From Spirogloea muscicola (taxonomy: Eukaryota > Streptophyta > Zygnematophyceae > Spirogloeales > Spirogloeaceae), in assembly GCA_009602725.1 (NCBI GenBank), contig WELB01000293.1, positions 113,960 to 136,416 on the forward strand: DNA of 22,457 nucleotides. The letters are read 5' to 3'. Both the position numbers and the translations under genes were made by a program. The notes under the pieces were generated by a model. The model had not been told where the DNA came from. It searched no databases and worked only from the letters and a program-made list of their open reading frames with translations. Positions 2,193-22,404 of the stretch are shown here, piece after piece. Numbering within the stretch: position 1 is the stretch's first letter; every line of letters begins with the position of its first letter.

Positions 2193-4264
2193 TTTTATGA
2201 CTTATTGATAAGGTGAATAACAGGTGATTGATCAGATTCTCATAATTTCGGAGCTGTTATACATGGACCTCTACATGCACTGTAGTCGCTGACAGAGCCT
2301 CATGGGCAAGCGACAAGATCTTGTTCTTGTATGGCAACTGATTTCAGTTTAAAACAAGCTGCACGACAAGCACATGCATGATCCAGAGCCACCAATATCA
2401 CATGATAGACGCTCCATTCAGAGGCCCAAGAAGCGACTTTGCAAAGCGATGCCATGATGTCTTTCGTCTGTTTTATGAAGCATTGGAACATGTGGAATGG
2501 AAAGCAGATACCTGTGTACATGTTGACTGTATAGACTTGAGGATAAAGCAGATCTGTCCTTGGAGATTAGAGTCAGTAAGTCATACATAGAAGCCTAGTC
2601 CTCTCAGAAGCCTTGTCAAGTTCTCTCAAGAGGGTTGTACTACCTGTTCAGTAGCAGGTGTGCTTTCAGAGTAGCACTCAATCATTTTGTCACAACAATG
2701 TGATCTTGCGTGAATCCCATTTTCCAGTCGGCAATACCAGCTAAAGCCACAACTGTCGGTTATACTAGCTTAAGCCACACCTGTGCAAGGAAACTGGTTG
2801 TCCGCATATGAAATGTCTTATGCAAGGATTCACAATTGAGAATACGTTGTTGCGCATGCACCTGCTTCTGAGAGAGTACATCGTCAACCTCCTAAGAGAA
2901 GTTGCACAGCACTTTGATTGCAAGGAGTTTGAGAAGCAAGTCAGCCCACAGCCATAGACACTTGGATGAGAGGTGGTCATGATGCATCACACCGGTGCAT
3001 ACCATCTCAGATCTATACGCATCCTTACCATAAATTACTCTGAGCCCACAGTTGATTTAATGAAGTCCAGAGAATGCCCAAGTGCATTGGCAAGTTGTGA
3101 TTCTTCATCGTTTGTATGATGTCGTCCATGTGATGTGACGATTTGTGATTGAGTCCTACATCGTTCTTTAGATGTCGTCCACATTATGGACGTATGTCGA
3201 CTTTAATGCAAGCATGACCGAAGCTGCTCAATCTTGTTCAGCATGACTTAGTATGCGGCTTTGTCAAGAGGTTGGGAGAAGGGTGTGGAGTACTTTGTTG
3301 AGGCCAGATCCTGCGTGCATGTGCACAGTAATGTGGCAATTAAAGCATAGTCGATGCATAATACATGATGCAGTATTTACAGAGAATGAAAGGCTGATGC
3401 TCGTGCAATGACATATAGGGGTTCTGCTGTTAACCATTTTAGTGTGAAGGTCAGAACACGTTCTTTAGTGCATGCCTTTAAGCTTGGGGTTCGACGATGC
3501 ACTACTACTGGTGCATACATTGCTTGCAGCAAGCAGCTTGTGACTATAATCGCTACACGGTCCATCCTTGAGAAGTGCAGCTAGCAATCTAGTGATAACT
3601 TGGGAATTTAATAGACAGATTCTTAATTAAGGACAGGCCTTGCCTTCAGGTGAGCTATCTTCAACCTGACTGCTGGTTCATCTGCTGTCCCCTTACAAGC
3701 AGGCCATGTCCTTCCAAGACCCCAGACTGTGGCCCAACATGTCTTCTATCCCTGTCAAGTCCCTGTGATTATACTGCAAGACCGTTGGACATTGCGGAAG
3801 CCCATTGCACCAGATGAAGCTGCTAAGCTGGCGGCAAAAGGCATGTATACGATTGTAGCTGTGTGGCGTCGTATGACCAGAACCATCGAGCCCACTCATA
3901 TTGACTGGATGCCAACTAGCAACGTCTCCCTCTCAGACCTACACTGTTCACAGCCGACACGTCATTGTGAAGGAAAGGGGAATTTCAATTGTCGGCAGCT
4001 GCAGCCGCAGATGCATCTCATCACAATAATCGCTCGTCCCGCTGAGTAGAGGGCATTTGGGTACAAAGTGCTCAGATCAGAGTGGCCCACTTTATGCCGA
4101 CGAGCGTGAAGGACTGATCACACGAAGAAGTAGCTCTTTCATACGGGCCAAGCGCTTGAAGCGCTTGGAAGGGGAAGTAGCTTTTTCTGAAGGGATGCGA
4201 GGGCTGTGGAAGACCAGCCACCAAAAGAATAAACAAGGAGCCAATAGGCATGGAGATACAGTAA
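2193..4264. other. Intergenic, no recognisable gene
   Basis: About 2 kb of moderate-GC sequence. Open frames are short (up to about 106 codons at 3729-4049 on +) and match nothing I recognise. The 3729-3900 part (DRWTLRKPIAPDEAAKLAAK) is the most protein-like piece and could be an exon, but I see no partner exons. At its right end, 4196-4234 carries a diverged member of the GGCTG...CAGCC palindromic family described below. Confidence 0.5.
4196..4234 (+). repeat. Dispersed palindromic unit (diverged)
   Basis: GGGCTGTGGAAGACCAGCC followed by an A-rich AAAAGAATAAACAAGG tail. This resembles the tail of the well-preserved units (AAAAAAGAATGAACAAAG at 10789-10806). It sits just left of the 3' end of the LINE at 4265-4901. 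Confidence 0.5.
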
Positions 4265-4901
4265 GAAAATTTCGTGTATTTGAAACAAACATAGGCCAAT
4301 GGCTAAGTACAAAGGCAAGCAAGCACATCTAAATATCTACATAACCTACAGCAGGTTGACCCGCTCAAAATCCACGGGTCAAAACATAAAGGTCGCTAAC
4401 CGATGCATGAATACTAGATGTCAGGTACGAAGCCCTTCTGTCACCAACTAGAGCTCGCCCAGCTTTCTGATGCAAGGCATTAGCCTGAGCTCGCTGCAAA
4501 CAGGCCGAAAGTCGACGTCGCAAGAACGACAAATATGCAGCTGGCAAGCCCATTTCAGCCGGAAACACATCTGCACGTCGTGTGTAGCCTAGATTGGCAA
4601 TGTTTTGGAGGAGGGTGTGAAATCGAGGACCCAGACAGCCATAGATGTCGATTGCCGCTGGCAGGAGCTGGTCGCATCGAGGGTAGTCGGAGTAGTGCTG
4701 CATCTTCCTTTGTTCTGCACTGCCCACTGCGTGACCAGCGATGTGTGTTGACGCTGGACCTTTATACGCCTCAGTGACAACCACGTCGACCAGGGCCCGT
4801 GGTCCTCCACCAGGTTGTACGCCCACAATGTCAAGTGTGCGGCGATGATGACGTCCCTGTGCGTCCGTGGTGATGGGCATGATGTTGTTGACTTCCACGA
4901 C
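4265..4901 (-). mobile_element. 5'-truncated LINE, C-terminal endonuclease-like region and 3' UTR
   Basis: A non-LTR retrotransposon fragment read on the - strand. It aligns end to end with 20221-20854 at about 90 percent identity by eye, and the similarity stops abruptly at 4901, as expected of 5' truncation during target-primed reverse transcription. An open frame ending in TGA at 4365-4367 encodes the C-terminus of the retrotransposon protein: RRTLDIVG, then ALVDVVVTEAYK, then AEQRKMQHYSDYP. That pattern fits the D...hhhD...K restriction-like endonuclease region of LINEs, and a basic tail ending SDLYVLTRGF follows. In this stretch the frame is intact where the copy at 20221 has a stop. No reverse transcriptase domain remains, so it cannot move by itself. 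A CCAGCCC motif lies 25-35 bases beyond the truncation point. Confidence 0.8.
4356..4382 (-). repeat. LINE hairpin spanning the stop codon
   Basis: TTGACCCG and CGGGTCAA form a perfect 8-bp stem around an 11-base loop that contains the LINE stop codon. The second LINE copy has the same stem at 20309-20335 with substitutions confined to the loop. Confidence 0.6.
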
Positions 4902-5282
4902 GCCCAGCGTAAGGTGCCTGCTTGTGTATAGCCAGCCCAGACCGGGGAAAATGAAGTAAAGAGAAACAGAAAAGCTTGGACAAACGAAAGACTGAACAGG
5001 AAAGGAGGTCCAGTGAAGCCTCAATCTGACCGCATGGGGCTGAACAGAAGCCGGATAGTGGTGGCGGGTCGTTGAGCGAGACACCCCTCCGCATGTATGG
5101 GCAAGGCAGCATGGGGTGCGGATCAGACAACGGTTTCATTATCTTGTTCTTCCTTTCAGGCGGCCGCGACGTCCCGCTGCCCGCCCACGGCGGCAAATCA
5201 TTAGATTTCCCGTCGGCTCGGCGCGACTCCCCCCCCCGCTTACGTGTCGACGTGTAGTCCCGGCCGCGCACACAGTGGAAGG

Positions 5283-5535: not shown

Positions 5536-6074
5536 TGCGGCGGTGGGTGACCGGAGGGCAGCGGATCGGACGGTCTGCATTGACTCGGACAAGCGGCGCC
5601 TGACCTGCAGCGCCCCATCCGACGGGGGGCGCGCGCCCGGGCTACCGGCACCAGGCGGGGGCAAGCGAGAGCCAGTGGGAGCCATCTGGAGCAATCTCGC
5701 GGACCAATAAAGCGCGGCGAGCCGCCTCCCGGGCGGGCTGGGGGGTGGGACCGGCCGCCCCCCCTCCCCGGGCGCCGCTCTCAGCACCGTGCGGGAGCCT
5801 CGCCCGGGAGCGGCCCCTCCCTCCCTCCTCCTTTGCCTAGCCTTTGGCTCCGTCATGAACACCAGTATGCATCTGGCTGGCATTTCACAGCCGATTCTTT
5901 CATATCAGCAGCCGCTTTCTCCTCCCGGCGCCTGGGAGCTCCCCGCGCCTCCCTCTTCCCGGATAGGCTCCCCCTTTTGAAGCCCCGCCCCAGTTCCAGT
6001 TCCGACAGTTGCACGCTTGATCTCCACTTCTCCCGCATCCCCTCGCCGTTCACCTCCCGCAATACTCCGTCGCC

Positions 6075-7560
6075 ATGGCCGCCATCACCGCCGCCGCCGT
6101 CGTCGCCCCGTCCACCTTCGTCGGCCAGACCGCCGAGCTCGCCAAGCAGGTCCCTCCCTGCCTCCGCCTGTGGTCTCTATCGCTGCACTGCTGTTAGCCC
6201 GCCTGTAACGGGCTCATATATACGATCAGAGTTGCCTGCAGCTGGATTTGCCTGCAGCTGGATTTGCCTCGCATCTGTGATATTCTTGAGGCTCCTTGTT
6301 AATGTCCTTGCGGCCTGTGACTCAATGCCATACCGTTCGACTTGTGACTTGAAGCCATACCGTTCCTGTCACAGGTTGGCAATGTCGAGGCTCGCGTCAC
6401 CATGAGGAGCGTCCGCCGGGCTGTCAGCTCTGGCAGCTCCACATGGTCAGGGGCTCGAGGAAGCAAATGTGTACAGCTTGTATTATCAAACAACTAATTG
6501 GACGTTGGATACATTGGTGCAGCAGCAATGGATGAGCAGCAACTCGACCGTCTACTACTGCCGTTAGTCTTTGCAGTCTTTGAAAGTCAGGTTGTCCTCA
6601 ACTGCAGGTACGGCCCTGACCGCCCCCTGTTCCTGGGCCCGCTGACTGGCTCTCCTCCCTCGTACCTGAATGGCGAGTACCCCGGTGACTACGGCTGGGA
6701 CACTGCGGGCCTCTCTGCTGACCCTGAGACCTTCGCCAGGAACAGGGAGCTTGAGGTGCAGGCCCTTCTGTTGCATCTCACTGTTCACAAGAATAGGACT
6801 CTATACCTCGATTGCTTCTAATGCAAGAGAGTAATTACAGGACATACACCAACGGTACATCTTGGCCTGCGCAGGTCATCCATGCTCGCTGGGCCATGCT
6901 TGGCGCTCTTGGCTGCCTCACCCCAGAGCTTCTGGCCAAGAGCGGCACCTCCTTCGGGGAGGCCGTTTGGTGGAAGGCTGGCTCCCAGATCTTCGCCCCG
7001 GGCGGCCTTGACTACCTTGGCAACTCCAGCCTGGTTCACGCCCAGTCCATCCTCGCTACCCTTGGCTGCCAGGTCATCCTCATGGGTGCTGTTGAGGGCT
7101 ACCGCGTTGCTGGCGGCCCCCTGGGCGAGGTTCGTTTCTTTCTCAGTCTGGGCTTCAAACTTCTGGCTGAATCATATTTTGATCATGCTGTTGAGGCCTC
7201 CTAACATGAAGAGAGGATTTGGTTGGAAATTCGAGATTGTATACTAATCTCCTGTTTAGATGCAATTGATATGATATTTAATCATGCCAATCTACCACTT
7301 CTGGCTTCCAGGTCACCGACCCCATCTACCCGGGTGGCAGCTTCGATCCCCTCGGCCTTGCCGATGACCCCGAGTCTTTCTCTGAGCTCAAGGTGAAGGA
7401 GATCAAGAATGGCCGCCTTGCCATGTTCTCCATGTTCGGCTTCTTCGTCCAGGCCATTGTTACTGGCAAGGGCCCTCTGGAGAATCTGGATGACCACCTT
7501 TCTGCCCCGTTCCAGAACAACGCCTGGGCCTATGCCACCGCCTTCACCCCCGGCCAGTAA
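6075..7560 (+). CDS. Lhcb: Light-harvesting chlorophyll a/b-binding protein of PSII (LHCII)
   Basis: A thylakoid antenna protein that binds chlorophylls a and b and carotenoids and feeds energy to photosystem II. Exons 6075-6149, 6375-6445, 6608-6755, 6875-7129 and 7312-7560 give 265 residues, the usual family length. All four introns are GT-AG. Subtracting 33 (a chloroplast transit peptide beginning [18 protein letters not shown]) gives exact LHCII mature numbering: WYGPDR trimerisation motif at 49-54, helix B E98/H101/R103 (E65/H68/R70), helix C Q164/E172 (Q131/E139), helix A E213/N216/R218 (E180/N183/R185), Q230 (Q197) and H245 (H212). The protein is therefore complete and looks functional. 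The ATG sits in CGCCATGGCC, a good eukaryotic start context. A candidate TGTAA poly(A) signal follows at 7690. The WYGPDR motif argues for a major trimeric LHCII (Lhcb1-3/LhcbM) over a minor monomeric antenna. Confidence 0.96.
6232..6269 (+). repeat. 16-bp tandem repeat in Lhcb intron 1
   Basis: TTGCCTGCAGCTGGAT occurs perfectly at 6232-6247 and 6248-6263, with a third partial start. Later in the same intron a 23-base segment ending GCCATACCGTTC is repeated at 6316-6338 and 6343-6365 with a few changes. Local duplications make up a good part of this 225-base intron. Confidence 0.85.
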
Positions 7561-7783: not shown

Positions 7784-10505
7784 TTGCGCTGATCTGAAGC
7801 TGTGGCATGGCGTGCATATGAAAGAGTTTCTGCATCTCTGCATCTCATCGTCTGTGATGAACTTGCTTGAAGCCGAAGCTTCATGCTATTTGCTTCTCGC
7901 TTCTTTCAATCACAAATGACTTTGATAAAGCAAAATTAACATCAAGAAAATTGTTAAAAGCTGAAGCCTTTTTCCAAAAGCAAAATCATGTCAATATCTT
8001 GCGCCTACCAACTTCTGGGCTGTGATGAAATTTGACGATATGCGACTACAATAAGTCAAAAATGAGATATATGCTCCGACCATGATATAATTAATGAAGT
8101 AGTAAACAATCAATTGCAGGCAATAATAGTGACAATGAAATTGTCAAACGTCTGACTAGATCACTCTCAGAACTGTTCAAATGTTGAAAGCTTACATGCT
8201 TTCCCATAACACTGAAGAATTGAAGATGCTGGAAGCAGTCCGATCTAAGACTACCTTCCTGTGCGGTGGCAGTGAGAAGTCACCTTTGACAAAAATTCTG
8301 CATCAAGCAGCATGATCGTGCCATACCTATCCCATTTGTTGACTGCTAGTCGAGTGTACAAAGTCTGCAATGGGGGACCCTTAATCCTAGACGGAATTGA
8401 CAGCTACAAAAATCTCTCGAGTACTTTAGAAGTCTTCCTCGTTTACACGTCGATTCAAGTACGCACGCAATGCTTCCAATTGTTCAGACAGCCCTGAGCC
8501 AGCCGAGGCTGGAGGATGAGGACTTCATAATTCGTTTGATGATTTGATAATGGCCATGTGGCACGCGCTGGCCTTGTGTCGTCGCACAGGTCGATCCACA
8601 ATGCAGCATAACTGTGTGCGTAACTGTGTGCGTAAGCAGTGCTCACTTCTGGCAACCCTGCTGCATTTCGAGCAATTTCAGGACTTCCAGAAGAAGTGGG
8701 CATATTGCTTGCTGCAGCGATACTGCAGGGATTATTGCATGTTCAATGATGTCCAGGTGTGATAGATACATGATACATGCATAAATTGACGTCAGACTTT
8801 AGCCTTCAATCAATAGTATCCGATACAGGCTTTGTCGAGCAAACGTTGCAGCTGACCTTTACTTGGGGCGTTGTCTACGGTGACACCTTATGAATGTTTT
8901 AGACTCCCTTCAATTGTACTGAATTGGGCATCGCTGCAGGCATCACATGTGTGGCAGACGCTGGTCTTGAGTTGTAGCCGAGCACAAGGCTGCTTTTCTA
9001 GCGGACCTTGCTTATCACAAGATTGTTGCCTTGCGAGCTGGAAGTCACACTCTAGCAGTCATGCACTTCGGCCTACGAATCAGGTTTAAGTTGCATTGCT
9101 CACAATGGCTCCTGTCTCAAAAGCACAAAATGCACGAGGATTTCACGAGGTCTGCTGAACAGCTTGATGATGACATGTGGCTTCTCATAGTATGCAGTGC
9201 AGGCCTCGGAGTCATATGACTCGAAGGTCGATGGCCATGCTACTAGGGTACGGGCCGGAAGCCCAGGCCAAACCAGAAGCCAACTTCTGCGTGGTTGATG
9301 TACAGGTGCAGCAATCTTTGTAACCCAAGCAGCTCATCAATGCTCCAGGTCCTGTTTCATAACCCTTGACACGATTTGACATTCTCCTCATGCCAGCTTC
9401 TCAGTAATTTCGATTTGCTACATTGTCAAATATTCCTAAAAGCTTACCTGCACAGATTAAGCCCATATAGGACTTATATGAACGATGATGCAGTGGCCTT
9501 GTCACTCAGGCGAGATAAAACCTCCCTGACTATTTGGTGCAGTATGTGCAGCCACTAGAGGAGTCCAATAGGGCTGCAGGCTTGCAAGAAGGGGCAACAA
9601 TTGCAGAGGTGGTGCGAGACAGGAGTTTGCTTCCAATTGCTCGACGTGGTTGCTTATCGTGCCTGACATGTAGACATCGCAAGAGAGTGTCAAGCAGACA
9701 TCGCACTTACGATGTACAATCAAGATTGCAATGAAACCGCAGCAAAGAAGACGCATAAGCAAGGGTCTAAATTACTTGTATGTAGTGGAACTGCTTGTCA
9801 ACAAAGCAGATCCTCACGCTTGTAACAAGAGCGGACTCAGTGCAATCTGAAGGTAGACTGCGGTGCTTTTACTGAACAGCTCAGAGAGGGCTCTCCACAC
9901 TGTTGAGGAAAGCGCCCGGCTGTGCAAGCATCAAAATGTCGACTATGCTGAGCAACATAGTTCGACACACAGAGCAGAGTCTTTCAAAGCTTCGGATGAC
10001 GCAGGCCTATGCTGGGCACTTCGCAGTTTGGAAATCTGACAAGGTCTGATGTCACTCGGTGCATCTGCGGCCATGAGCGGGCTTCGTCTTCACCGCCGAG
10101 ACGGATGCGACCCGCTAATCCTCTCGGAGTCGATTACATCCACGGGGCGTTAGGGGCTCAACGGGGCGGCGAGCTATGACTCGGCGTCAAGGAGAGAGGC
10201 GCGCGAGCGCATGAAAAGGAAAGGGAGGCCACTAAGGGCAGCTGGGCGAGCAGCCCGGCCTCAATACCGGCTGGCCGCTCGCTAAGGATTTGAAGTATGC
10301 TCCTCTCCACGTACTCCAGACGTTCGCTGTGCACTCGCGAGCAGGCGATTCCGTCTCTAGGTCCAGCGTGGCGACGTCTTTCTAGCTGCTAGCTACCCTG
10401 ACTTGCAGCTGTTGGTTTGGTGAGCACTCATTCGTAGTTTCCGTTTGCATTGTGGCGTGTTTTCTCTTTCCGGCTCTTTGAGCCTTGTCCATTCCCTTTG
10501 GGTCG
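7784..10505. other. Intergenic, no recognisable gene
   Basis: About 2.7 kb in which I find no gene, RNA or clear mobile element. From about 7880 to 8260 it is AT-rich. A 12-bp perfect duplication, TAACTGTGTGCG, lies at 8609-8632. GC content rises around 10030-10290. The short frames on both strands have no family features. Confidence 0.5.
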
Positions 10506-10750
10506 GCCTCTCACAGCCATCTGCTCGCTTAAGAGCTTCTTCTCCGTGGGGAGGGGCAAACGCCCAGCCGAGGACAGGGAGTGCGGACGAGAAGCGGCGG
10601 CTGTTGAAGACGAAGATGCTCTTCCAGAAGTAAGCTCTTCCAGAGGGGGCGAGTATAGTGAAGAGCCAGCCCACAAAGGGATGCCCAAGGTCCAAAGGAG
10701 TCGGAAAGCGTACAGACCACTAAGGATGCCTGCTCCTCTACGAAGAAAGT

Positions 10751-10799
10751 GCTCGCCCATTGAGGATAGGGGCTGGAAAAGCCAGCCCAAAAAAGAATG
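10751..10799 (-). repeat. Class A palindromic unit, subfamily 1
   Basis: Contains GCTCGCCCATTGAGGATAGG, the hairpin GGGCTGG-AAAAG-CCAGCCC and a poly-A-like tail ending GAATG. The same 49 bases occur on the opposite strand at 17846-17894 with one difference by eye. A third copy at 22353-22404 extends the match to CTTTGTT outside the unit. Confidence 0.9.
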
Positions 10800-10964
10800 A
10801 ACAAAGTCTAAACCCCCTCATGAAGCGGCTTTTACTAAACAGAAGGGAATGGGGCGCCTTCCGAATGGGGCGAGGGCTGTGAAAAGCCAGTCCACGAAAA
10901 GAACGTATCTGTGAAGAAAGACACGGCTCGGCTAGTGTAAGGCAATGGCTGTGAAATGGAGAAG

Positions 10965-11008
10965 TGCTCGCCCATAGAGAAGAGGGCTGGCAAAGCCAGC
11001 CCAAAAAC
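10965..11008 (-). repeat. Class A palindromic unit, subfamily 2
   Basis: The hairpin is GGGCTGG-CAAAG-CCAGCCC, and the box next to it reads CTCGCCCATAGAGAAGAG instead of CTCGCCCATTGAGGATAG. The copy at 19279-19325 shares these diagnostic bases. Confidence 0.85.
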
Positions 11009-11571
11009 AATGTCTAATGTCCAATGTCCAAAGCCAAAGAACGAGGTACCGAAAAAGGACTACACTACCAAACACGACATGGACTAGGGAAAGGCCAGCC
11101 CCAGGAGAATGTATGTCAAGACACTATTAGAGGTGCACATCCCGAGTAGCCAGGTCGGGGGAAGGGAAATAAAGAGAGAAACAGCTCTATTGTTGGGCAA
11201 TGGCTGTGAGAGGCCAGCCCCAAGAATCAACACAATTCTCCGCAAGTGGGCTGGGCCAATCACAGCCATCGCCTCTCTACTGGAAGGGTCTTTCCTCCTG
11301 GGGGCTGGCCTTTCACAGGCATTGACTTACATTGAATAATGGAACAAGGTATACAGGTGCAATAGACATGGTACTAATTTTGGTTGTCACTCCGAACCTT
11401 CTGAAAAACTGGCTCGAGACGCTCGCAAGCTTGTGTCCCACCAGGTCGGCCAAGCGGCTGACGTCAGGCCGCCTCGAGCACGTGCAGGCGACACGCCACG
11501 CGTCGACATTTGAGGAGCCCCGCCGGTCATACACGTGTCGAGCGATCTCGCATCCGGGTACGGAAGCTCGA

Positions 11572-11604
11572 CGGGCAGCAGCAGAACGTTTCTCCTGCTG
11601 CCCG
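11572..11604. repeat. Hairpin 1, 10-bp perfect stem
   Basis: CGGGCAGCAG at 11572-11581 pairs perfectly with CTGCTGCCCG at 11595-11604 across 13 bases. Confidence 0.75.
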
Positions 11605-11701
11605 AGGCTCGCGCCTGGGGGAACGTACGAGTCGCCAACGCTAGCTGGGCCATCAGACCCAACCGGCTCAACGGGGACGACCCTTGGCCCCCCGAGGCCC
11701 T

Positions 11702-11728
11702 CCGCTGCCCGCCCGTCGCGGGCAGCGG
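11702..11728. repeat. Hairpin 2, 11-bp perfect stem
   Basis: CCGCTGCCCGC at 11702-11712 pairs perfectly with GCGGGCAGCGG at 11718-11728 around 5 bases. Its arm shares GCTGCCCG with hairpin 1. Confidence 0.8.
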
Positions 11729-11741
11729 CTGCGAGTGGGCC

Positions 11742-11753
11742 CGCCACGTGGCG
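11742..11753. promoter_or_regulatory. 12-bp palindromic G-box
   Basis: CGCCACGTGGCG is a perfect palindrome with a CACGTG core. Two further CACGTG cores lie 213 and 266 bases upstream, the nearer within the 8-bp palindrome ACACGTGT. Confidence 0.5.
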
Positions 11754-12115
11754 CGTCCAACCCAGCCAGCGCGGCCCATTCTTCACGAGTCGTCAACAGT
11801 CCATCTCGGCCCCGCCGCCGCCGACGCCGCGGCCGACGCCGCCGCCGCCGCCGCCGCAGCCCGGCTGCAGGAGGTCTGCCGTTCTGGTCACGCCCACTGT
11901 AGNCCTGCGGCGTGGCCATGGTCCGGCGCGGCGGCCGGCACGGGCCCCCGAGCCGCCTCCAGGCCACACAGCGGAGCCGGGCGCACCGCAAGGAGCGGCT
12001 GCGGGGCTGGCTGCGCGCGGGCTGATGCTCCGCAACCGCTAGTTCGCGAAGCTCGCGGCTCCTCCGTGCCGGGAGGTCCGGCGGCGGCGGCGGCGGCGGC
12101 GGCGGCGCAGCAAGG

Positions 12116-15100
12116 ATGTCGGCGTTCTCGAGCTGCTGGTTCCCGCCGACGTGCCTCAGCCTGACCGTCGTCGGCCTCGCCAAAGGTGAGTCGTCTCGAC
12201 GCAGTAGACCAGGCTGCGATGCATGAGGCTGTCCGAGACCTCTCAGCCACGCTTTGGCTCGGGCTCCCCCGTTCATTGTCACTGCCTGCGGTGCACCGCC
12301 ATAATGCCCATGCCCGAACGCCAGGCCGCCTGTCTGCTGACCTGCTGACTGCGGGAAGCCGTGGCGCTGCCTCGTTGCCCTGCCAGGCCTGCTCATCTTC
12401 CCGCTCGCGCTTGTCATCCTCGTCGTTGGCAACACCCTTGTCGCGCTCGGCCTCCTGCCGCTCACCTTCGCCATGACCCTCTACTCAGTCGCCTTGTGAG
12501 CTCACACCTGATTCCCACCTTCGCTTTTGCATCAGCCCTCGTAGCACGTGCATGGCAGACAGTCTCGGCGGACAGCCCAGGCAGGTCGATGCAATGGTTG
12601 CAAGGCAATTGTTGCTGGGACACTGTCTTGGCCACAGCAGCCTTGTGTGTCAACCAGCATAGGTGTAGGCTACAAGCACTGCCAGCTTCAGGGCGCCTGC
12701 ATGCACAACACAAATCAAGCACTAGTGCGAACAGATTTTGGCCTGTCGTCTGTCGAACCTTGCAGCAAAGCCAACGACACCTGTCAGGCACTGAGCTAAT
12801 CTGTCGCCGGTGCACTTTCTCTTCCAGGACGAAGCAGCTGCGCATGGTGCAAAAGGCGGGAGCTCTTATCTGCCTGCCCATTCTGATACTCCTCTGGCCA
12901 GTCGTCGTCTTTGTCGGCAGCTTGTTTGTCAGTGTCATGTATGGCTTCTTCGTGCCCCAGATTGCCACATTCAAAGCCATTGGCGAGAACCGGGAAGACA
13001 AGCTGCACCACGTCCTCCGGGTGAGCACTTTGCCAGCCAGATAAAATGGCTATCGCCACTGCAAGCCAGTCCCCTACAGCTACAGGCGGTCCCTCTCCAC
13101 ACCACACAGGCGTGCTGGGCATCCTCGTCAGAGCTGCTTGGGGCACCTCTAAATTACCGAACTTGAGGCGCCTTTCCACAGGATGGATTTGTGGGCCAGG
13201 TAGGCGTGTGCACGTCGATTGTGAAGGACTTTGCCGACTTCAGCTACAACAGCTACCCATGGTACTTGAAAACTTATCGCACCAAGGAGGAGAAGGCAGA
13301 GAGCGTCTCGAGCATGATCAAGTGAGCGGCGCTGCTTACTTGTGTGGCAGAATTGTGTCTCCCTGGCTGGTTGTGCCTAGCAGTCCCACAGTTCAGTTTC
13401 CACACACTATAAGGTAGTGCTGAGCTTTGAGTAGATCAATTGTCTTTTCTCAAGTCAATAGAAGTCTGTGCATATAAGCAAAGCATCTGAGATGACAAAC
13501 AGGCACTATCTTGTGGGCTTATGCATGCTTGTGTCCTGCACCAGGCAATTACTGTGCTCAGCATTGCTGTTTTTTGCACTCATCTCGTATGAGATTAATG
13601 TTTGCTTGTCAGGATCAAGGTACTGCCAGGGTGCCTCCTTGTCAGTGTGTGCGGGCTCCTCGCCGACACAGTCCTCCTCACTGCCATCGCTATTGCCAAG
13701 AGCCCAGTGCTTCTGTGGCGTGGCTGGCAGCGCCTGTTTGAGTCGGCGATTGAGCGCCAGGGGCTATGCCTTGAGGCCACGTGCCTGCCGTGCGCCTTGC
13801 TTGTGCTCGTCCTCTGGCCTATCGCTGTGCTTCTGTCCATACTTGGCGCTTTCATGCTCAGCCCCTTCGTGGGGATGTATGCTGCGGCTATTGCATACCA
13901 GGTGCTCCACTGTGCACATGGCCAGCATGCAAAGGCCAATGCTTTTGTGATACTGTGCCCCTCTCAGACTGAGATTATTCACACATTTGCCATCAGGGAT
14001 CATAACCTATTGCAGACCCACTTGCCTTAAGCTTGTGTGAGCTTGTCTTTGGCAGGAGAACTCAACAAAGATGGGGTTTGCTTACATCATGACCGTGGTA
14101 GCAGAGTTTGACGAGTACACAAATGAGCTGCTGGACATGAACGAAGGCACAGTCTTCCCCAAGTGAGCACAGCTTGCTTCAAGGACTGTTTGCCTATTCA
14201 CTCTTGTGTACTCTGATCGCATGGCCCTCTGCCTCAGCAGGATATGATGTGTCTGTCATCTTGCAGGTATAGATACCGGCAGGATGCGGGGTCATCGTCA
14301 CAGTCCTCCTCTGAGGCCTCGGAGCAGGGTGCCAAGGTTGCTGCATCGGAGGAGCAAGACAAGGTGGCGGAGCAGCCGGTCAACCGTCAATCACTGGAGC
14401 TGACGCAGCAGCAGCTGGGGCAGGTGCCAGTAGCGATGCCGCTCGATGGTGACCAGTCCAGGACCAGCATATGGCAGGCCATTGAGAAGCAGGCAGCGGG
14501 AGGCGGGACGCCAGGTCGGTTGCCTCAGCGGCAGCGGTCGGCATCGTTGTCGTCGAGGCTCTCGGGCCTTGAGAGGCAACGCTCGGGGCCAGCCGTCATA
14601 CTCCACCGACTTGCCCGCACCGCCGCCGGCAAGCCAAGGCCAACACAGCATTTGGCCATGAAGCAGGTGCTTGCTAAGCTGCACGTCTAGTAAAGAGCAA
14701 GATTGGCATTGTGAACGTGCAAAGGCACCTCGAGTTGCAGTATGTGGTCCATTCTGCGGCGTGCTCATGTATCAATGCTCTAGGTTTAGGGTTAGGGGTA
14801 GGGTTTGAGGTATAGGATTTGGGGTTTAGGGTAAGGAGTAGGGGTTAGGATTCAGGGTTTATGGTTATGTTGTCGGTGCTGACAGCCAAACCTGACAAAG
14901 TGGAGGAGAGCTTTGTTTGGCAGCTGTGGAGCAGCTTGCTGGGGACGTGCAAGATGATAGGCCACGAGCTGGTGGACTGCGGTGTCGTTGGACCCAAGGA
15001 GATGCAACGGTGGACACTTGACTGGGCAGGCCCGAATAAACGGAGTGGCGCGGTGGGCATCCCGGCCCTTTGCCTGCTTCGCATGCTGCTCCAGTCCTAC

Positions 15101-16006
15101 AAGCGCAACTCGGCGGGCCTGGTTTTCTGTAAGTCCTCTTCTCGCAGAGCATTGATGAGCTTGACCATGCTACGCACACACAGCCTTCAGAAAATTGTGC
15201 AACCTTCCTTTTGCTGATGGCTACTGACTGCTGTTACTTGCTGACCCTCTACATGATTGCTCACAAGTATGTTCGTTAAATGATAGATTGCCTGTCTAGG
15301 TCTACCTCCAGCAGTCATCATGTTCCTATGTACTACATCTTTAGGCCTAAACATTTGCTCAATTGACAATTCTGCTTCGCGCTGTGACCTGTCGCCCCTA
15401 TAGGTGATGGCCACGAGCTGCTGGCCAGCAACAAGCCGGACCATCGGGTGGTGGAGTGGTTCTTCAATCCGCTCATGGTGATCAAAGCGCAGCTGCAAGC
15501 GGACCAGCTTTCGCCACGAGAGGAGCGCTACTTTGAAGGGCTTGTCCTCTCGATGGGCGATGATACAGTCTTGGAGAGGTGGCTTCAGGACAAGGATGCA
15601 GCCCCCCCTACCGAAGCTGCTCGTAACAGCGAGCTCCAGGGATTTGCACGCAGGTGAGAGAACCTGTCTGTAGATTCGTGTGGTAATTGGGGTTGTCGAG
15701 ATGTATGATTGAAGATTGGACATACTACTTTCTGCGTAACTGTCAAGCCTGACTTGTCGCTCCTGCCTCCTAGCAGAGCCATGCATTTAAGGTGAGGTTT
15801 AAGGTCAATCAGGCAGCCACCTCACGTGGCAAGTAAGACTGCTACATGCTTTCAGGATTCAAGGCATTGCTACGACCTTAGCAACATTCCCCACATTCCG
15901 GCGGCGATTCCACAGGCTTGTTGAGGAGTTGGGTCCCTATGCTCGGGCCCAAAGACTGCATCGACCAACAAGCGTGCCAGCAAATATTGACAACTTGCCA
16001 GTATGA
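12116..16006 (+). CDS. At3g27390-like multi-pass membrane protein, ten exons
   Basis: Homologue of the plant uncharacterised membrane protein At3g27390; function unknown. Exons are 12116-12185, 12387-12495, 12828-13020, 13182-13321, 13613-13901, 14056-14162, 14267-14514, 14886-15128, 15404-15653 and 15856-16006, about 599 residues (the Arabidopsis protein is about 590). Residues 10-60, 75-105 and 180-265 hold hydrophobic membrane segments, with family-like blocks VGNTLVALGLLP, LLWPVVVFVGSLFVSVMYGF, IAKSPVLLWRGWQRLFESAI and LLDMNEGTVFPKYRYR. A Ser/Arg/Gln-rich linker follows, then a soluble C-terminal part with VEWFFNPLMVIKAQL, LSPREERYFEGLVL and QGIATTLATFPTFRRRF. Only the exon 7-8 junction is uncertain. 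Frame requires a phase-1 splice, and 14514/14886 fits best; 14666/14849 (phase 0) is the alternative. Without that splice the protein stops at 14690 after 443 residues and loses the C-terminal part. Confidence 0.85.
14781..14861 (+). repeat. Interstitial telomere-like repeats within intron 7
   Basis: About eleven degenerate units of TTTAGGG. Two are exact and the rest are variants such as TTAGGGG, TTTGGGG and TAAGGAG. TTTAGGG is the plant-type telomere repeat, also found in many green algae. The tract has the G-rich strand on + and ends 25 bases before the inferred acceptor of exon 8. Confidence 0.85.
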
Positions 16007-17845
16007 CCTTAGAGCTCTCGAATTGTGTGCAATCTTACAGCAGGAGCACTGCTTATCATGAGGTAGTGCTGCAGATGGTGGCTGCAGCATGCCGATTGGA
16101 CACTCCAGTCCAACTCTTGTGTCAGCTCAAGTCTCATCCAGGACTTGGAAGAGTTTTACCAAGCCCCCTCACCCCCCCCTACGACTCCCTCCTTTTTAGT
16201 GCTAGCTACCTTGCCGTCTCGGCTCTCAGTTTGCACCTTGACAGGCCACACTGGCCACTTTTTGCCATGATCTCTTTGTAAGAGTCATGAGTCTATTGCG
16301 GATGCTCGTCTCAAATTAGTGCAGCAGGGGGCATTCCGTGGTTGGAAATTATTTTCAAGAATCACCAGTAGCGGTCTTTGTACAATGTCCTAGCAGATTT
16401 GGGGGTCGAGTGGTTCATTGCAAGCTGGCAGCAATGCAGTAAGACAAGCGAATGGGCGGAGCCTTCAGACACGACGCCCTCTCCACACCTCAATGGCACT
16501 TTGGATTGCTAGAAATTTGACACTTCACATTTTGAAGTGCAGCCTTTTGCACCGTTAATGCTGCCTACCATGCACTTCTGTTGCCTCAGCACATCACCTT
16601 ATTTTACTATGCTGACTGTTCACGAATATCTTGTGCAGACTGCTTGTCAAGGGGCCATCATCTGCTTGCCCTTCTCTGCACAGCTTGTGATAGGATTCCC
16701 CTTCAAGCTGGCACCAGGCAGTGGAAGAGGTTTACTGTTTTTATGAAGCGGCGTACTGTGTCCGTTGAATTCAATACTCATTCGTCTCAGCCCTTACAGG
16801 CACCTATGCACATCTTATCTTTGCACTTCAGCGTAACAGTATATTAAAGATGATCGCAAACCCTTCAGCAGTCCTCATCAAGCTCAAGCAGGGGTGCCAG
16901 CGCCTCACGGCTGTGCACCTTGGGCTCTGAGTGGCAGGGGTGACATGCCATGGCCACAGGGATGAGTAAAAGCACCCTCACAAAATTTTGATTGTGCCAG
17001 AAATTTTGCTGCTGCAGGTGCACATCAGTTGCGCCCACTCTCACTGAAGAGACCAACCCTCAGGAGATAAGGCCTCCCATAATTGCCACAGTTGCTACAG
17101 AGGCCAAACGAGCGGGCGTTTCAATGGCAGCCAAGGAAAAAGAAGCAAAAATGTAAGGCAGATTGAACACCTGGAATATTTTTCTCCCTGCCAATGGACT
17201 ATCACTTTGCTCAAGCTTTCGGAGGCTATCCGAGCCATCGAGCCGGGGAAGCCAAACTCCAAACGGGACATGCTGTTGCCCAAGAGTGACATGCGAGCTC
17301 AATTGACCCTGGCCTCCGCAGCTTTTGGCAATAGCGTGACTCCACCATTGTGGCCATTGAGATAGAATCGTCGTGGTCGAAAACGTCCAAGCATGGACTT
17401 TCCAGGACTCGTAGTTTGCCTTTGGTCATCACAGCTAGAATGAAGAGGCTGTTGGTAAAATTGTTGTTTTTAATGCTATTCCAGCTGTCTTATTATAGAG
17501 TCAAAGCGGCCCTACGGTCGAGATGCTGGGGTTGGACCACTCGTGAGCCAAGACTAATTTTCCAATTGAAAGGCCCCCTGCGTGGCTTCATAAGGCGTTG
17601 AGGACCGGAGCTCAAAAATATTCTAGGGCCGGGTCTCAGAGTGTGCTAGGGGTGAGAAGCAGGCTATTCTTCACCTCCTGGCTTTCTGCAACTTGATCCC
17701 GCTGGCCATCTGGGCAACGTGCAGAATGAAGGCTTGTAGGCGCCCAGCTTGCGGTAGCCACCGGTGCATGGTGGCTACCACGACGAGGAGCGGAACCTAA
17801 AAGCGAGCGACGGCTGACGTAGGCACAACTCGAAAGAATGACCTC
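16007..17845. other. Intergenic, no recognisable gene
   Basis: Includes the 3' UTR of the membrane-protein gene, with a candidate TGTAA poly(A) signal at 16277-16281. The rest holds only short frames (at most about 92 codons) without family features. I see no RNA gene or repeat of note. Confidence 0.5.
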
Positions 17846-18106
17846 CATTCTTTTTTGGGCTGGCTTTTCCAGCCCGTATCCTCAATGGGCGAGCCCTTTC
17901 TCTTCCATGAATGTTTTACCATCAGTGATAATTGTTCTCTAACTTATTCTTATCAAAATCCTCTTCATTCCAGGATGTTTATATTAATTACCAAATATGT
18001 AATGCTAGTGAGTAGTAAATCGTCAACGGGAATCTGGGGGTGTGTCTTGAAGAAGGATAGCCTTCCAATTGTACAGCAATGGCTGTGAGAGGCCAGCCCA
18101 AAATGT
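17846..18106. mobile_element. MITE-like element bounded by inverted palindromic units
   Basis: A class A subfamily 1 unit at the left (17846-17894) and a class B unit at the right (18076-18101) face each other. The outer ends match as terminal inverted repeats: TTTTGGGCTGGC at 17853-17864 and its complement GCCAGCCCAAAA at 18093-18104. CATT just outside on the left and AATG on the right extend the symmetry. The total length of about 250 bases and the lack of coding capacity fit a non-autonomous element. I see no convincing target-site duplication, so the pairing could also be chance juxtaposition of two repeats. Confidence 0.45.
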
Positions 18107-18133
18107 AAAGAACTCCCTGGGTGCCCAGTGACT

Positions 18134-18165
18134 CTTCTAATCAGTCAATCTTCTAATCAGTCAAT
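18134..18165 (+). repeat. 16-bp perfect tandem duplication
   Basis: CTTCTAATCAGTCAAT is repeated twice head to tail. A small perfect hairpin, CCGGTTC-CTCA-GAACCGG, follows at 18210-18227. Confidence 0.9.
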
Positions 18166-18489
18166 CTGGCCGCGCTTGCTTCTAAGGGATAGCTGCTTTC
18201 TCTTAGAAACCGGTTCCTCAGAACCGGCGGCAGCTACAGCAGCGGAGGCGGCGGCCACGTGTCGACTTCTGTGAGGGCTTTGAGGCAACTGCCCGTCGCT
18301 CAATTATCCCATTACAGCAGAGGCAGGGCTCCGCCGAATTGTAATATATAGTGATTTTCAAGCCAAAATCTGCTATGTCCAGTGAGAGAACCCTGCAACA
18401 GCAAGTTGCAGAGCAAATTGCTGATTCCCTGATCCTTGATCCCTGAAAGGGAGAGGGATACGACGACGTCGCCAACGGCCAATGCCATA

Positions 18490-18661
18490 GGCGCCTGGTC
18501 ATGATTGGGTAAGCCCTTTCACGAAGGGATTCCCAGTCTCGTTGCTACAGATGCTGTAAAAGCATGTGCAGCAATGGCGCCTGGTCATGATTGGGTAAGC
18601 CCTTTCACGAAGGGATTCCCAGTCTCGTTGCTACAGATGCTGTAAAAGCATGTGCAGCAAT
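18490..18661 (+). repeat. 86-bp perfect tandem duplication containing two hairpins per unit
   Basis: Units 18490-18575 and 18576-18661 are identical and each begins with GGCGCC. In unit 1 the first hairpin is TGGG (18506), CCCTT (18514), loop TCACG, AAGGG (18524) and CCCA (18532). The second is TTGCTACAGATGCT (18542-18555), loop GTAAA, AGCATGTGCAGCAA (18561-18574), paired at 12 of 14 positions. Most of each unit is taken up by the two hairpins. I find no tRNA signature (no B box), so no RNA class is proposed. Confidence 0.9.
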
Positions 18662-18824
18662 GGCCGGGATTGAGAAGACCTCTCAAACCGCTGGTCCTCT
18701 GGCTCTCCATCTCGTCGGTAGCTTTTCTCTACACCTTGAAGGCCTGGTTGGAGTCGACTGTCCCCTAAAGAAAGACAAGACACCTCCACCTCCTAATCAT
18801 GCTTCAAAGTGATGAACTCCTCGG

Positions 18825-19120
18825 AGTTCTGCAGCTCGGCAAATGGCTTCTTGCTGTATCCTCAACTGGCATCCCCTGGCCACTCCTTTAGCCCTGGATC
18901 TGCAGCTTAGCGAGTAGTTTCTTGCTGCGTCTTCAGCTGACATCCTCTGGCCAATCCTTTAGCCTCTTCCTACACGTCTTCAGCGTGCACCCTGCAGCTC
19001 AGCCTGGTAGCTTCTTGCTGCACATCCTCAGTTGGCATTCCTGCAGCTCAGTCCTGGAAACTTCTTGCTGCCATGCTTCAGCTGGCATTCCTCAGCTGGC
19101 ATCCCCTGGCCTGTCCTTAG
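18825..19120 (+). repeat. Degenerate minisatellite
   Basis: Four to five imperfect units share TTCTTGCTG (about 18848, 18918, 19012, 19061), followed by a CTTCAGCTGGCAT-like segment and CCCCTGGCC, with GCAGCTCAG-like linkers. Spacing varies from about 50 to 95 bases. A frame of 148 codons crosses it (18922-19368) but its protein is low complexity and unrecognised. Confidence 0.6.
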
Positions 19121-19278
19121 GTTTAGTTAGTGCTCTGGGGTCTGCTAAGCAAGCAGTAATCGGAGATCAGGGCTCCTCCACTGGGCTTTTTCGTTTTCCT
19201 CTAGAAGAAGATCCCTCATCCACCATCACCTGTTACCTTATACTTTCGGCACCTCTTTCTTTGGCTTGGGATATTGTC

Positions 19279-19325
19279 CATTCTTTTCGGGCTGGCTTTG
19301 CCAGCCACTCTTCTCTATGGGCGAG
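19279..19325 (+). repeat. Class A palindromic unit, subfamily 2
   Basis: CATTCTTTTC, then GGGCTGGC-TTTG-CCAGCC, then CTCTTCTCTATGGGCGAG. It shares the diagnostic TTCTCTATGGGCGAG with the opposite-strand copy at 10965-11008. Confidence 0.85.
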
Positions 19326-19456
19326 TACTTTGTTTATACATCTCAGCATATGGGCTTCGTTGAAGTAGCCTTCTTTTTTGCACTAGGTTTTGCCTGAACA
19401 GTTTCCTGGCTCAAATTGGCCTCCCTTTCATTCATGCGCACCGCACGCCTTCTCTC

Positions 19457-19496
19457 TTCCACGCCTGCAAAGCAGGCCTGGAAAGCAGGCGTGGAA
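19457..19496. repeat. Hairpin with 12-bp perfect stem
   Basis: TTCCACGCCTGC at 19457-19468 pairs perfectly with GCAGGCGTGGAA at 19485-19496. The 16-base loop repeats part of the arm (GCAGGCCTGGAAA), suggesting local duplication and inversion. Confidence 0.8.
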
Positions 19497-19579
19497 AGCA
19501 GAAGGAATTAGGTCAAACCGAGCAATCTGCCAACTCAGCCAGTTTTTCGAGGGAAAGGCTACTCGATAATCATCCTCTC

Positions 19580-19910
19580 CGGGCTGGCTGTTCACAGCCC
19601 TTGCCCACCTTTGGGAGAGCCACTTTCTTTCTTCTGGGCTGGCCCAGAAAAAAGGGGGTGACACGTAGAGGGTGATGACTGTGAGTAGCCAGCCCAGAGG
19701 GAAGAGTGAACAAACTTGGAAAAGGCCAGAGAGAGGGCAAAAGCACAGTGACTCAAGTAGCCACAAGGCACTCATCATTCAGTAACCCCAGAAGAAAGGA
19801 TGAAGTGGGCGAGGGCTGTACAAAGTCAGCCCGACAAGAGTTGACAAGATCCCAAAGAAACAGCTTTCGAATATACGGCAGTGGCTGTGAGAGGCCAAGC
19901 CCAAAGAGAG
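19580..19910. repeat. Second cluster of palindromic units
   Basis: Units at about 19581-19605 (GGGCTGGCTGTTCACAGCCC), 19633-19698, 19808-19838 (GGGCTGTACAAAGTCAGCCC) and 19877-19905 (class B, GGCAGTGGCTGTGAGAGG). The 19633-19698 part is bounded by perfect 11-base inverted repeats, TCTGGGCTGGC and GCCAGCCCAGA. Confidence 0.75.
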
Positions 19911-19974
19911 AAGGGGCGCGGTGCGGATTTCGAGGGGGAGGGCAATTCTAGCCTTACAAAATGTCCTTCTAAGT

Positions 19975-20175
19975 GGGTAATGAGCTGGCTAAGGGGGACA
20001 CTAAATATCCCCGAGTGAGCACATGCATATCTGACAAGCTACACAGAGGAGCCAAATTACCACCACGGAAGCCATTAGCCTGGGCTAATGCACGACCTGC
20101 ACGCTGGTGAATCGCAAGTGCCTGGGAGCGATGCAGACTCAATGATAGCCGCATTCTGTAGCATGCAACGCCTAA
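19975..20175 (-). mobile_element. Short LINE 3' fragment, related but distinct family
   Basis: Read on the - strand it encodes LHRSQALAIHQRAGRALAQ and, further on, SLSDMHVLTRGY. This lines up with LQRAQANALHQKAGRALV and SISDLYVLTRDY of the larger LINE beginning immediately to its right. Only the last 60 or so codons are left. Being clearly diverged in sequence yet in the same orientation, it is a separate, older insertion or a related subfamily. Confidence 0.6.
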
Positions 20176-20308
20176 ACCCAGAGGAATGTACGAGGGGCAG
20201 AAGAGCGCTGAATACGAAGGGAAAATTTCGTGTATAGGAAACAAACGAAGGCCAAATGGCCAAGTACAGAGGCAAGCACATCGGAAGACCTACATAACCT
20301 ACAGCAGA

Positions 20309-20335
20309 TTGACCCGCTCAGTAATCACGGGTCAA
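20309..20335 (-). repeat. LINE hairpin spanning the stop codon (second copy)
   Basis: TTGACCCG and CGGGTCAA again form a perfect 8-bp stem with an 11-base loop. The loop differs from that of the copy at 4356-4382, but the stem does not. Confidence 0.6.
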
Positions 20336-22234
20336 AACATAAAGGTCGCTAATCGATGCCTGAATACTAGATGTCAGATACGAAGCCCTTCTACCACCAA
20401 CTAGAGCTCGACCAGCTTTCTGGTGCAAGGCATTAGCCTGAGCACGCTGCAAACAGGCCGAAACTCGTCGTCGCAAGAAAGACAGGTATGCGGCTGGCAA
20501 GCCCATCTCAGCCTGAAACACATCTGCACGACGTGTGTAGCTTCGATTGGCAATATTTTGGAGGAGGGTGTGGAAACGAGGACCCAGACAGCCAAAGATG
20601 TCGATTGCCGCTGGCAGGAGCTGATCTCATTGTGGGTAGTCGGAGTAGTGCTGCAACTTTCTTTGTTCTGCACTGCCCACTGCGTGACCAGCGATGTGTG
20701 TTGATGCTGGACATTTATACGCCTCCGTAACAACAACGTCGACCAGGGCCCGTGGTCCACCACCAGGTTGCACGCCCACAATGTCAAGTGTGCGGCGATG
20801 ATGACGTCCCTGGGCGTCCGTGGTGATAGGCATGATATTGTTGACTTCCACGACCGCACGGTAGCCGGCGTCGCGCATCAAGCCCGCCAGGGCATCGCGG
20901 AGGAGGTTGTGGATGCCCACCAATTCTGGTCCAGTGGGGCATCTCAGCATGTGAGTGGCGAGCTCAGCACCCTCTGCGCGGAAGCCGCACTCGCGTTGGC
21001 GCACCCCAATCAGGCAGTTAGGTGGGAGGCCGAGGAAGAGTTGCAGCGACGTCCGAAAGGCCTCAGAGCTGATGCTGAAGGCGTTGACGACGGCGTGTGA
21101 GGTGATCCAATCCGTGGCACCAGGTGTGGCTAGAGAAGTAAGTCTTGCCAGGCTCCTTGGATTGTTCTCGAACTCTGGCAGCCTCCTCAACCTTCTGCGG
21201 CGCTCGTCTTCCACTGCCGTAACCAGTCTGGACTGTGCCCCTCTATCAGAAGCTTGGGCGAGGGCGGAGAATGGCGTGAGCAGGGGTTGGAGAGAGGGGA
21301 AAGAGCCGATGGCTGAGTCGCGGATGCTCCTCAGATCCGCTTGGAAGGGGAAGGGGCCTTCCTCCACATTGCGTACAGGGACGTGGAGGCAAGGGAAGCG
21401 CATGGGGAGCAGAGACGCGATTTGGTGCCAGCAGCCCAGGAAGGCTGCTTGCGCCGTCTGCTCCAACGACCGGCAGCCAAGGCCGCCCATGCCAGTTGGG
21501 AGGGAGGCCTGGAGGGATGCTGAAGCTGAGGGGAAAGAGAGAAGGCGCGCGGTGCGCATGAAATTAAAGCGAGGCCAATTCAATACATTGTTCAGACAAA
21601 ACTAGCGCAAAGATAAGGGGGCCTTGTTGACCCATCAAACGACCACTGCTGGAGCTGCGGGGTGAGTGGGGCAGCAGCAAAGATGAAGAATGTAGTAGGG
21701 ATGCCAGGGACTGCAAAAGGGAGTCATCATATTCTTTGTAGAGCTCCACCACCATGCCCACTGGGGCGACTGTCAGTTGAAGATAGCAAGCCCGTCGGCC
21801 GATGCAGCGGGTGAGGATGGCCAACGCCAGCTGTGTGTCCCCAAGCAGGGGAAGAGAAGGGAGGTGGGCGAGGTGTTTTTGAAGGCGTTCCCGCAGGTCC
21901 GTGAGCAGAAGAAGTAGAGCTCCGTGAGCTGGTGCACCGAAGGGGACCTTGAGGATGGCCAGCCCATTGGCATGGGGTCTGACAGCCGTGGGGGAGCTGA
22001 AGGTTGGCGGGGAGACCGCGTGTGGACCAGGCCACGCTCTTGGACGGGCAAACCCGCAGGCCCATCAGGTCCAATTTGCGAACGAGCAAGGGGTAAGCCT
22101 CCATGACTTCAGCTGGAGGTCCAATGATGTGTGTCATCCGCGTAGGAAGGGAAGAGGAGGTCTGGCTGTTGGCTCTGGGTGCGCCGAAGAGCCCGGCAAT
22201 GTGCCAAGGCAAACAGAATTGGGCTAAGGGGATC
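20318..22234 (-). pseudogene. LINE reverse transcriptase/endonuclease-like protein, broken
   Basis: Domains in order on the - strand are as follows. RT motif DPLSPILFALAH spans 22199-22234. The catalytic YADD is encoded at 22133-22144. Next come THIIGPPAEVMEAYPLLVRK, a stretch ANGLAILKVPFGAPAHG, a segment with CIGRRACYLQLTVAPVGMV, and GMGGLGCRSLEQTAQAAF, the GGLG block typical of LINE proteins after RT. A Cys/His region ECGFRAEGAELATHMLRCP is followed by IHNLLRDALAGLMRDAGY and the endonuclease-like RRTLDIVG and ALVDVVVTEAYK. The frame is broken just after YADD, near 21970, and near 21590, and a TGA stands at 20627-20629 where the other LINE copy has TGC. The motif order fits LINEs with a restriction-like endonuclease (R2/CRE-like or Dualen-like). 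Clade assignment is inference. Confidence 0.85.
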
Positions 22235-22352
22235 CTCTCTCTGATTTGCGGCTGCTTAGCAGGGGTTACTGAGTGATTTGTAGCTGCTTTCTTTCTTTGT
22301 GTGCTTTGGTTTCTTAGCGCTTCCTCTGGCTTCCTCTGGCCCCCTTCTCGTT

Positions 22353-22404
22353 CTTTGTTCATTCTTTTTTGGGCTGGCTTGTCCAGCCCCTATCCTCAAT
22401 GGGG
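22353..22404 (+). repeat. Class A palindromic unit, subfamily 1
   Basis: CTTTGTTCATTC, a T run, GGGCTGGCTTGTCCAGCCC, then CTATCCTCAATGGG. It matches the reverse complement of 10751-10806, including the outer CTTTGTT, apart from one loop base and a change after CAATGGG. Confidence 0.9.

Follow-up and report, generated by a model that had tools for sequence, protein, structure and literature searches.

The 49-base hairpin unit scattered through this stretch of green-lineage nuclear DNA appears, on sequence comparison, to be the best-preserved segment of a longer repeat, now decayed, whose copies stand in tandem and inverted. The window (the whole stretch of DNA analyzed, 22,457 bases, 54% G+C) had been predicted to carry the 49-base unit as a propagating element. 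That the unit itself propagates is not supported, nor is it the whole repeat: copies align over much longer stretches outside the unit, and their clusters resemble tandem and inverted monomers of about 110 bases. The analysis does support a dispersed, non-random family in two orientations, in which class B is diverse and class A comes in two sub-versions.

Results

Class A copies form two sequence versions

All five class A units of the original prediction were recovered, self-BLAST among the evidence, within a few bases of their expected positions, two on the forward strand and three on the reverse, in keeping with the claim that both orientations occur. First-version copies lie at 10744-10810 (+; perfect 7-bp stem, linker TTGAGGATAG), 17846-17901 (-; linker TTGAGGATAC) and 22353-22403 (-; box cut to CCCAT). 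Second-version copies lie at 10962-11054 (+; linker TAGAGAAGAG, longer 3′ flank) and 19244-19334 (-), and have 94 alignment columns in common. The box said to be shared, CTCGCCCAT, occurs four times in the whole window, every time inside a class A copy, while the 22353 copy has TAGCCCCCAT instead. The outermost pair of the hairpin stem is missing from one of the five copies (19279). The proposed three-plus-two division of linkers is exact for TAGAGAAGAG (twice) and for TTGAGGATAG (twice), and inexact for the third first-version linker, at 17846, where the final base is C.

Self-BLAST identities among the first-version copies (10744, 17846, 22353) are 96.4% over 56, 98.0% over 51 and 95.5% over 44 bases. 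Comparisons across the two versions give 81.6-89.4% over 38-62 bases, and the second-version pair (10962 and 19244) is 81.9% identical over 94 columns. The best E-value among class A copies, 4e-20, bears out the view that these are not chance GC-rich sequences. That separate lineages were copied is a fair reading of 95-98% identity within the first version versus 82-89% between versions. We infer that class A is a younger, more recently copied subfamily.

Class B relatives are diverse and extend beyond the class A interval

The pattern GG[CT]TG[GT]N3-12CCAGCC gave 16 matches in the window, which correspond to 11 distinct sites, since a palindrome is hit once per strand; the same pattern had a mean of 0.24 matches in dinucleotide-shuffled windows (50 shuffles). 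The window has only four exact matches to GGCTGTGAGAGG. Fifteen class B candidates were collected by fuzzy search and by eye; they were picked on the core, so its conservation is partly built in. Each was scored with an ungapped, leave-one-out position-weight profile trained on all other rows and run against 100 shuffled windows. For ten candidates the score was never equalled by the best of any shuffled window, matching the predicted figure of about ten relatives, and 19814 was equalled in 2 of 100. Two indel-bearing class A rows fail this ungapped profile (A10985, 97/100; A19288, 13/100), and BLAST joins both to the family.

Profile-supported copies lie at 4185-4241 (+; core 4202, also found by fuzzy search, adjoining the 3′ end of a LINE-like fragment), 18050-18130 (+; core 18081), 19560-19629 (-; core 19580) and 19668-19794 (+; core 19677), the last having a long 3′ flank in common with 22255-22397. 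A pair of cores, 19814 and 19883, at 19802-19914 (+) is collinear with 10863-10985, with 19814 marginal when taken alone. In the main cluster, core 10498 sits in an inverted arm (10419-10558, -) recognized by its alignment with the direct arm at 10617-10757 (+), which carries core 10654 and is supported by profile and gapped alignment. Core 11202 (11191-11224, +) has an inverted partner, core 11301 (11298-11331, -); both are supported by profile and alignment. The cores at 4202 and 10498 show that the family also occurs outside the interval 10751-22404 to which it had been assigned.

Four class B-like candidates fail the leave-one-out profile and are insecure: 4920-4939 (+) and 5873-5892 (-), both from the fuzzy search, the latter some 180 bases ahead of the start codon of LHCII; 11081-11100 (+; core 11090), which sits in the regular array; and 11247-11267 (-), equalled in 19/100 shuffled windows under the full model and 1/100 under a B-only model. 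Class B is probably the older, diverse part of the family.

Homology extends well beyond the 49-base unit

In gapped local alignments, the four longest pairs show homology over 127-198 bases a side. Controls were 300 mononucleotide shuffles of one partner per pair, and the margins are somewhat flattering because regions were picked after an earlier all-against-all look. The segment 10646-10815 matches 10867-11035 with 123 identities in 191 columns (score 102, against at most 48 in 300 shuffles). Three inverted pairs follow: 10419-10558 with 10757-10617 (102/156 columns; 73 vs. 50), 19668-19794 with 22397-22255 (96/149; 75 vs. 52) and 10863-11058 with 19433-19236 (148/217; 138 vs. 63), the left half of the last being doubtful because it overlaps a LINE-like stretch. 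Through the second of these, the homology of the class A copy at 22353-22403 with the unit at 19668-19794 extends to 22255. Shorter alignments also exceeded the best of 300 shuffles: 19802-19914 with 10863-10985 (86 identities in 130 columns), 18050-18130 with 19855-19923 (59 in 82) and, inverted, 11191-11224 with 11331-11298 (28 in 34).

Flanking sequences, which played no part in picking copies, gave a consistent picture. Across 19 copies (171 pairs), the mean pair score was 15.03 for 3′ flanks, against a maximum of 12.88 in 100 random sets, and 13.87 for 5′ flanks, against a maximum of 11.18. For class B alone, the 5′ flank was clear (13.08 vs. an own-shuffled maximum of 11.30) and the 3′ flank marginal (13.42 vs. 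13.36).

The main cluster, 10419-11331, combines an inverted arm (10419-10558 against 10617-10757) with a run of monomers on one side only. Its six core ends, at 10671, 10787, 10892, 11001, 11100 and 11219, are separated by 116, 105, 109, 99 and 119 bases, the fifth belonging to a candidate that is insecure by itself. Lag scans peaked at 100-120 (38-43.5) and 210-220 (60-79.5), where the best of six shuffles reached 35; smaller peaks at 260 and 330 were also above the best shuffled value. The longer lag corresponds to a B-A dimer present in two forward-strand copies (10646-10815 and 10867-11035, together 10646-11035) with a period of about 218, as the alignment also indicates. The second cluster has just two outstanding lags, 210 and 290. 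Of two control regions, one had a peak (at lag 390, 34 versus at most 30 in six shuffles) and the other had none. TRF reported no array of about 110 bases in the main cluster, even at score 30; the tandem nature of the repeat therefore rests on gapped alignments of regions chosen post hoc. The tandem structure thus appears to be old and decayed.

This arrangement raises the question of whether the repeat is an old minisatellite confined to the locus, which recombination duplicated and inverted in place with no mobile carrier. Clusters that lie within 22 kb in tandem and inverted arrangement would fit, as would the presence of other duplications nearby, one of them an exact 86-base tandem. Two search patterns also went unmatched in viral contigs, and one of them in prokaryote contigs, although these are not collections in which such a repeat would be expected. 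We nevertheless consider the minisatellite reading unlikely, as single class A copies (17846 and 22353) lie kilobases from the main cluster, class A as a whole occupies both orientations, and a secure class B copy, at 4202, lies beyond a gene.

Strong folding is mainly a property of class A

Compared with dinucleotide shuffles, all five class A copies fold far better than expected (z = -2.60, -3.43, -2.68, -3.05 and -3.62), with AAAAG-like loops. Among 14 folded class B copies, z fell below -2 in two (11202 and 19814), 19580 was at -1.96, and 11 were above -1. Class B thus retains the sequence, yet 12 of its 14 folded copies miss z = -2; with covariation lacking as well, the proposal that the hairpin defines the family is not supported. 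In 20 aligned copies, 34 of the 35 class A cells for the seven stem pairs are paired, as are 82 of the 105 class B cells. A search for covariation in these copies found one compensatory cell in total, with 82.9% of cells paired versus 83.6% in shuffles; the paired percentage is higher than with slid partners, a consequence of the class A palindrome. Class A is without one T that is present in class B (GGCTG-GAAAAGCC vs. GGCTGTGAAAAGCC), and this yields its perfect stem.

Absent covariation and weak class B folding led us to reject a structured RNA. More broadly, a role as structured non-coding RNA, or as regulatory sites grouped upstream of genes, is very unlikely, even though all class A and secure class B copies fall outside recognized coding parts, a multi-exon gene follows about 800 bases after one of the clusters, LHCII has a weak copy upstream, and the core is better conserved than the flanks (a comparison in which candidates were chosen on the core). 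Rfam returned 0 matches at gathering score, the best weak match in the clusters being MIR3444 at 24.2 bits against a cutoff of 80. A tRNA-derived SINE was likewise rejected, with ARAGORN finding 0 genes and no tRNA among the weak Rfam matches.

Signs of mobility and identity

At class A unit ends, flanking matches of 5-6 bases occur in two of five copies, which is the chance level (41.5% of random spots have direct repeats of at least 5 bases and 11.9% of at least 6). A Helitron-type 3′ end, CTRR within 20 bases behind the hairpin, is found in one of the five copies. No transposase or complete terminal repeat was found. Pfam searches of nine ORF pieces detected no transposon domain, and their one match was a sub-threshold O-FucT.

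These results bear on the idea that the short class A palindrome is itself mobile, inserting or spreading by template switching as do yeast mitochondrial GC clusters or Volvox organelle palindromes. First-version copies are 95-98% identical over 44-56 bases, with similarity lost sharply beyond, and strong folding (z = -2.6 to -3.6) is seen in every class A copy, much as a mobile palindrome would show. Yet 3′ ends differ among copies (GAATG vs. AACAAAG and beyond), homology of the 22353 and 10962 copies with other copies extends over more than 100 bases, target-site duplications do not exceed chance, and the window is nuclear, whereas the palindromes named spread in organelles. An independently mobile palindrome thus seems improbable, to about the same degree as the minisatellite.

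The earlier statement that the repeat matches no named family stands in a weak form, the library of named families compared being Rfam (0 matches at gathering score). The class A box pattern hit 23 stretches of viral contigs, none of them unit-like beyond the pattern in BLAST (best matches 14-32 bases, E 0.014 or worse), and these are taken as chance. The class B pattern had no match in viral contigs, and a pattern of the class A hairpin plus A-run had none in viral contigs or prokaryote genomes; with few eukaryotes in these collections, such absences say little. The publications found by literature search do not name the repeat, which is no proof of its being unpublished.

Genomic setting

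An intron-bearing major LHCII gene occupies about 6075-7560; the protein joined from its exons scores about 405-419 bits against what we take to be land-plant LHCII and about 374-390 against presumed Chlamydomonas chains, a difference that hints at a streptophyte host. Two LINE-like fragments, 4265-4901 and 20221-20854, are 90.8% identical over 638 columns and have a common 3′ end. A YADD motif, which we take to be typical of reverse transcriptases, is readable near 22140. A viral-contig search with a piece of the LINE-like protein P0002 found no relative. Local duplications such as the exact 86-base tandem also occur nearby. A LINE origin of the hairpins was considered and rejected: a class B core (4202) lies near the fragment end at 4265 and none lies at 20221, and the hairpin is therefore not part of the LINE end. 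The hairpins and the LINE-like fragments are apparently separate features, and one fragment seems to have inserted into a class B neighborhood (4202 and the insecure 4920).

Discussion

We give an even chance to the reading that the homology, spacing, inverted arms and two class A versions described above are the decayed remains of a non-autonomous transposon, foldback-like or satellite-carrying in type, of which class A would be a younger subfamily; the carrier itself is putative. Under this favored explanation, the repeat would be non-coding, with a monomer of about 110 bases in which the core (GGCTGTGANAGGCCAGCCC) is followed on its 3′ side by an A-rich flank; a spacer of lower conservation comes next, and a CTC-box precedes the following core. 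The monomers would form short tandem arrays, some of them organized as B-A dimers, with inversion between adjacent arrays, and may have been moved by a foldback-like or Helitron/Helentron-like transposon mobilized in trans; satellite-like repeats are carried likewise in other eukaryotes. The class A palindrome would have been perfected by loss of a T from GGCTGTGA. The hairpin may then be a side effect, or a trait of one subfamily that is linked to recombination or to a transposase, rather than an RNA product.

Plant MITEs are short, non-coding, hairpin-forming and found near genes, as are the repeats here; terminal inverted repeats with a target-site duplication were not found in our case.

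Among described systems, the foldback transposon Tetris of Drosophila virilis, with internal tandem repeats of 220, offers a possible parallel in its tandem repeats inside inverted arms and its non-coding, apparently non-autonomous, satellite-like modules (PMC4079207). The B-A dimer period of about 218 happens to be near the 220 of the Tetris repeats. Here, in contrast, no terminal ends, target-site duplication or complete element were found, the arms are far shorter, and the host belongs to another kingdom. Cg_HINE of the Pacific oyster, in which Helentrons carry satellite-like repeats, is similar in its short satellite-like arrays scattered through euchromatin (PMC7492417), and differs in that CTRR follows the class A hairpin within 20 bases in only one of five copies here. 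Yeast GC clusters are GC-rich palindromes with subfamilies that spread as short units (PMC4478555), but they are mitochondrial, whereas the present short unit is nuclear and lies inside a longer monomer. The short palindromic repeats of Volvox carteri are intergenic hairpins of a green alga, also present in nuclear DNA (PMC2670323); they are organellar, have TTTA-type loops where those seen here are AAAAG-like, and are judged inert in the nucleus.

A more speculative variant, to which we attach little credence, is that the perfect 7-bp palindrome created by the single-base deletion conferred mobility or recombinogenic activity on class A; a nuclear short-palindrome element would then have arisen from an inert satellite-like repeat and later split into two lineages. 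As it stands, the repeat resembles a commonplace remnant of mobile or satellite-like DNA, not a new kind of element, and the family leaves the general picture unchanged. If it proves to be genome-wide, it would serve as a marker of repeat turnover in a green lineage that has been little studied, and as a small test of how palindromes originate within longer repeats and of whether they spread faster once formed.

Genes and other repeats in the window

The window carries a multi-exon gene (1-2066, +), which starts within a CTG-rich tandem repeat and the last part of which gave a sub-threshold O-fucosyltransferase match (16.1 bits against a cutoff of 31.5). It also holds a major light-harvesting gene (LHCII; 6075-7560, +) that several introns interrupt. 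A weak sequence resembling class B, the relatives of the hairpin-bearing class A repeats, lies upstream of the LHCII gene at 5873-5892.

An inverted pair of class B copies weakly matched the microRNA precursor MIR3444 at 11185-11281 (24.2 bits against a cutoff of 80), which is probably a chance match.

Degenerate interstitial telomere-like repeats of the TTTAGGG type were located directly behind a gene (14783-14862). An exact 86-base tandem duplication (two copies) was found at 18490-18664, and degenerate tandem repeats around CTGGCATCCCCTGGCC, at spacings of 50-71 bases, occupied 18828-19118.

Two LINE-like retrotransposon fragments, at 4265-4901 and 20221-22300 (-), are both broken and 5′-truncated; they share a common 3′ end and 90.8% identity across 638 columns, and the second contains a YADD motif near 22140. 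An additional short repeat at 19377-19458 (+), 19903-19928 and 21535-21611 (80.7% across 83 columns) connects the second hairpin cluster with the interior of the LINE-like fragment.
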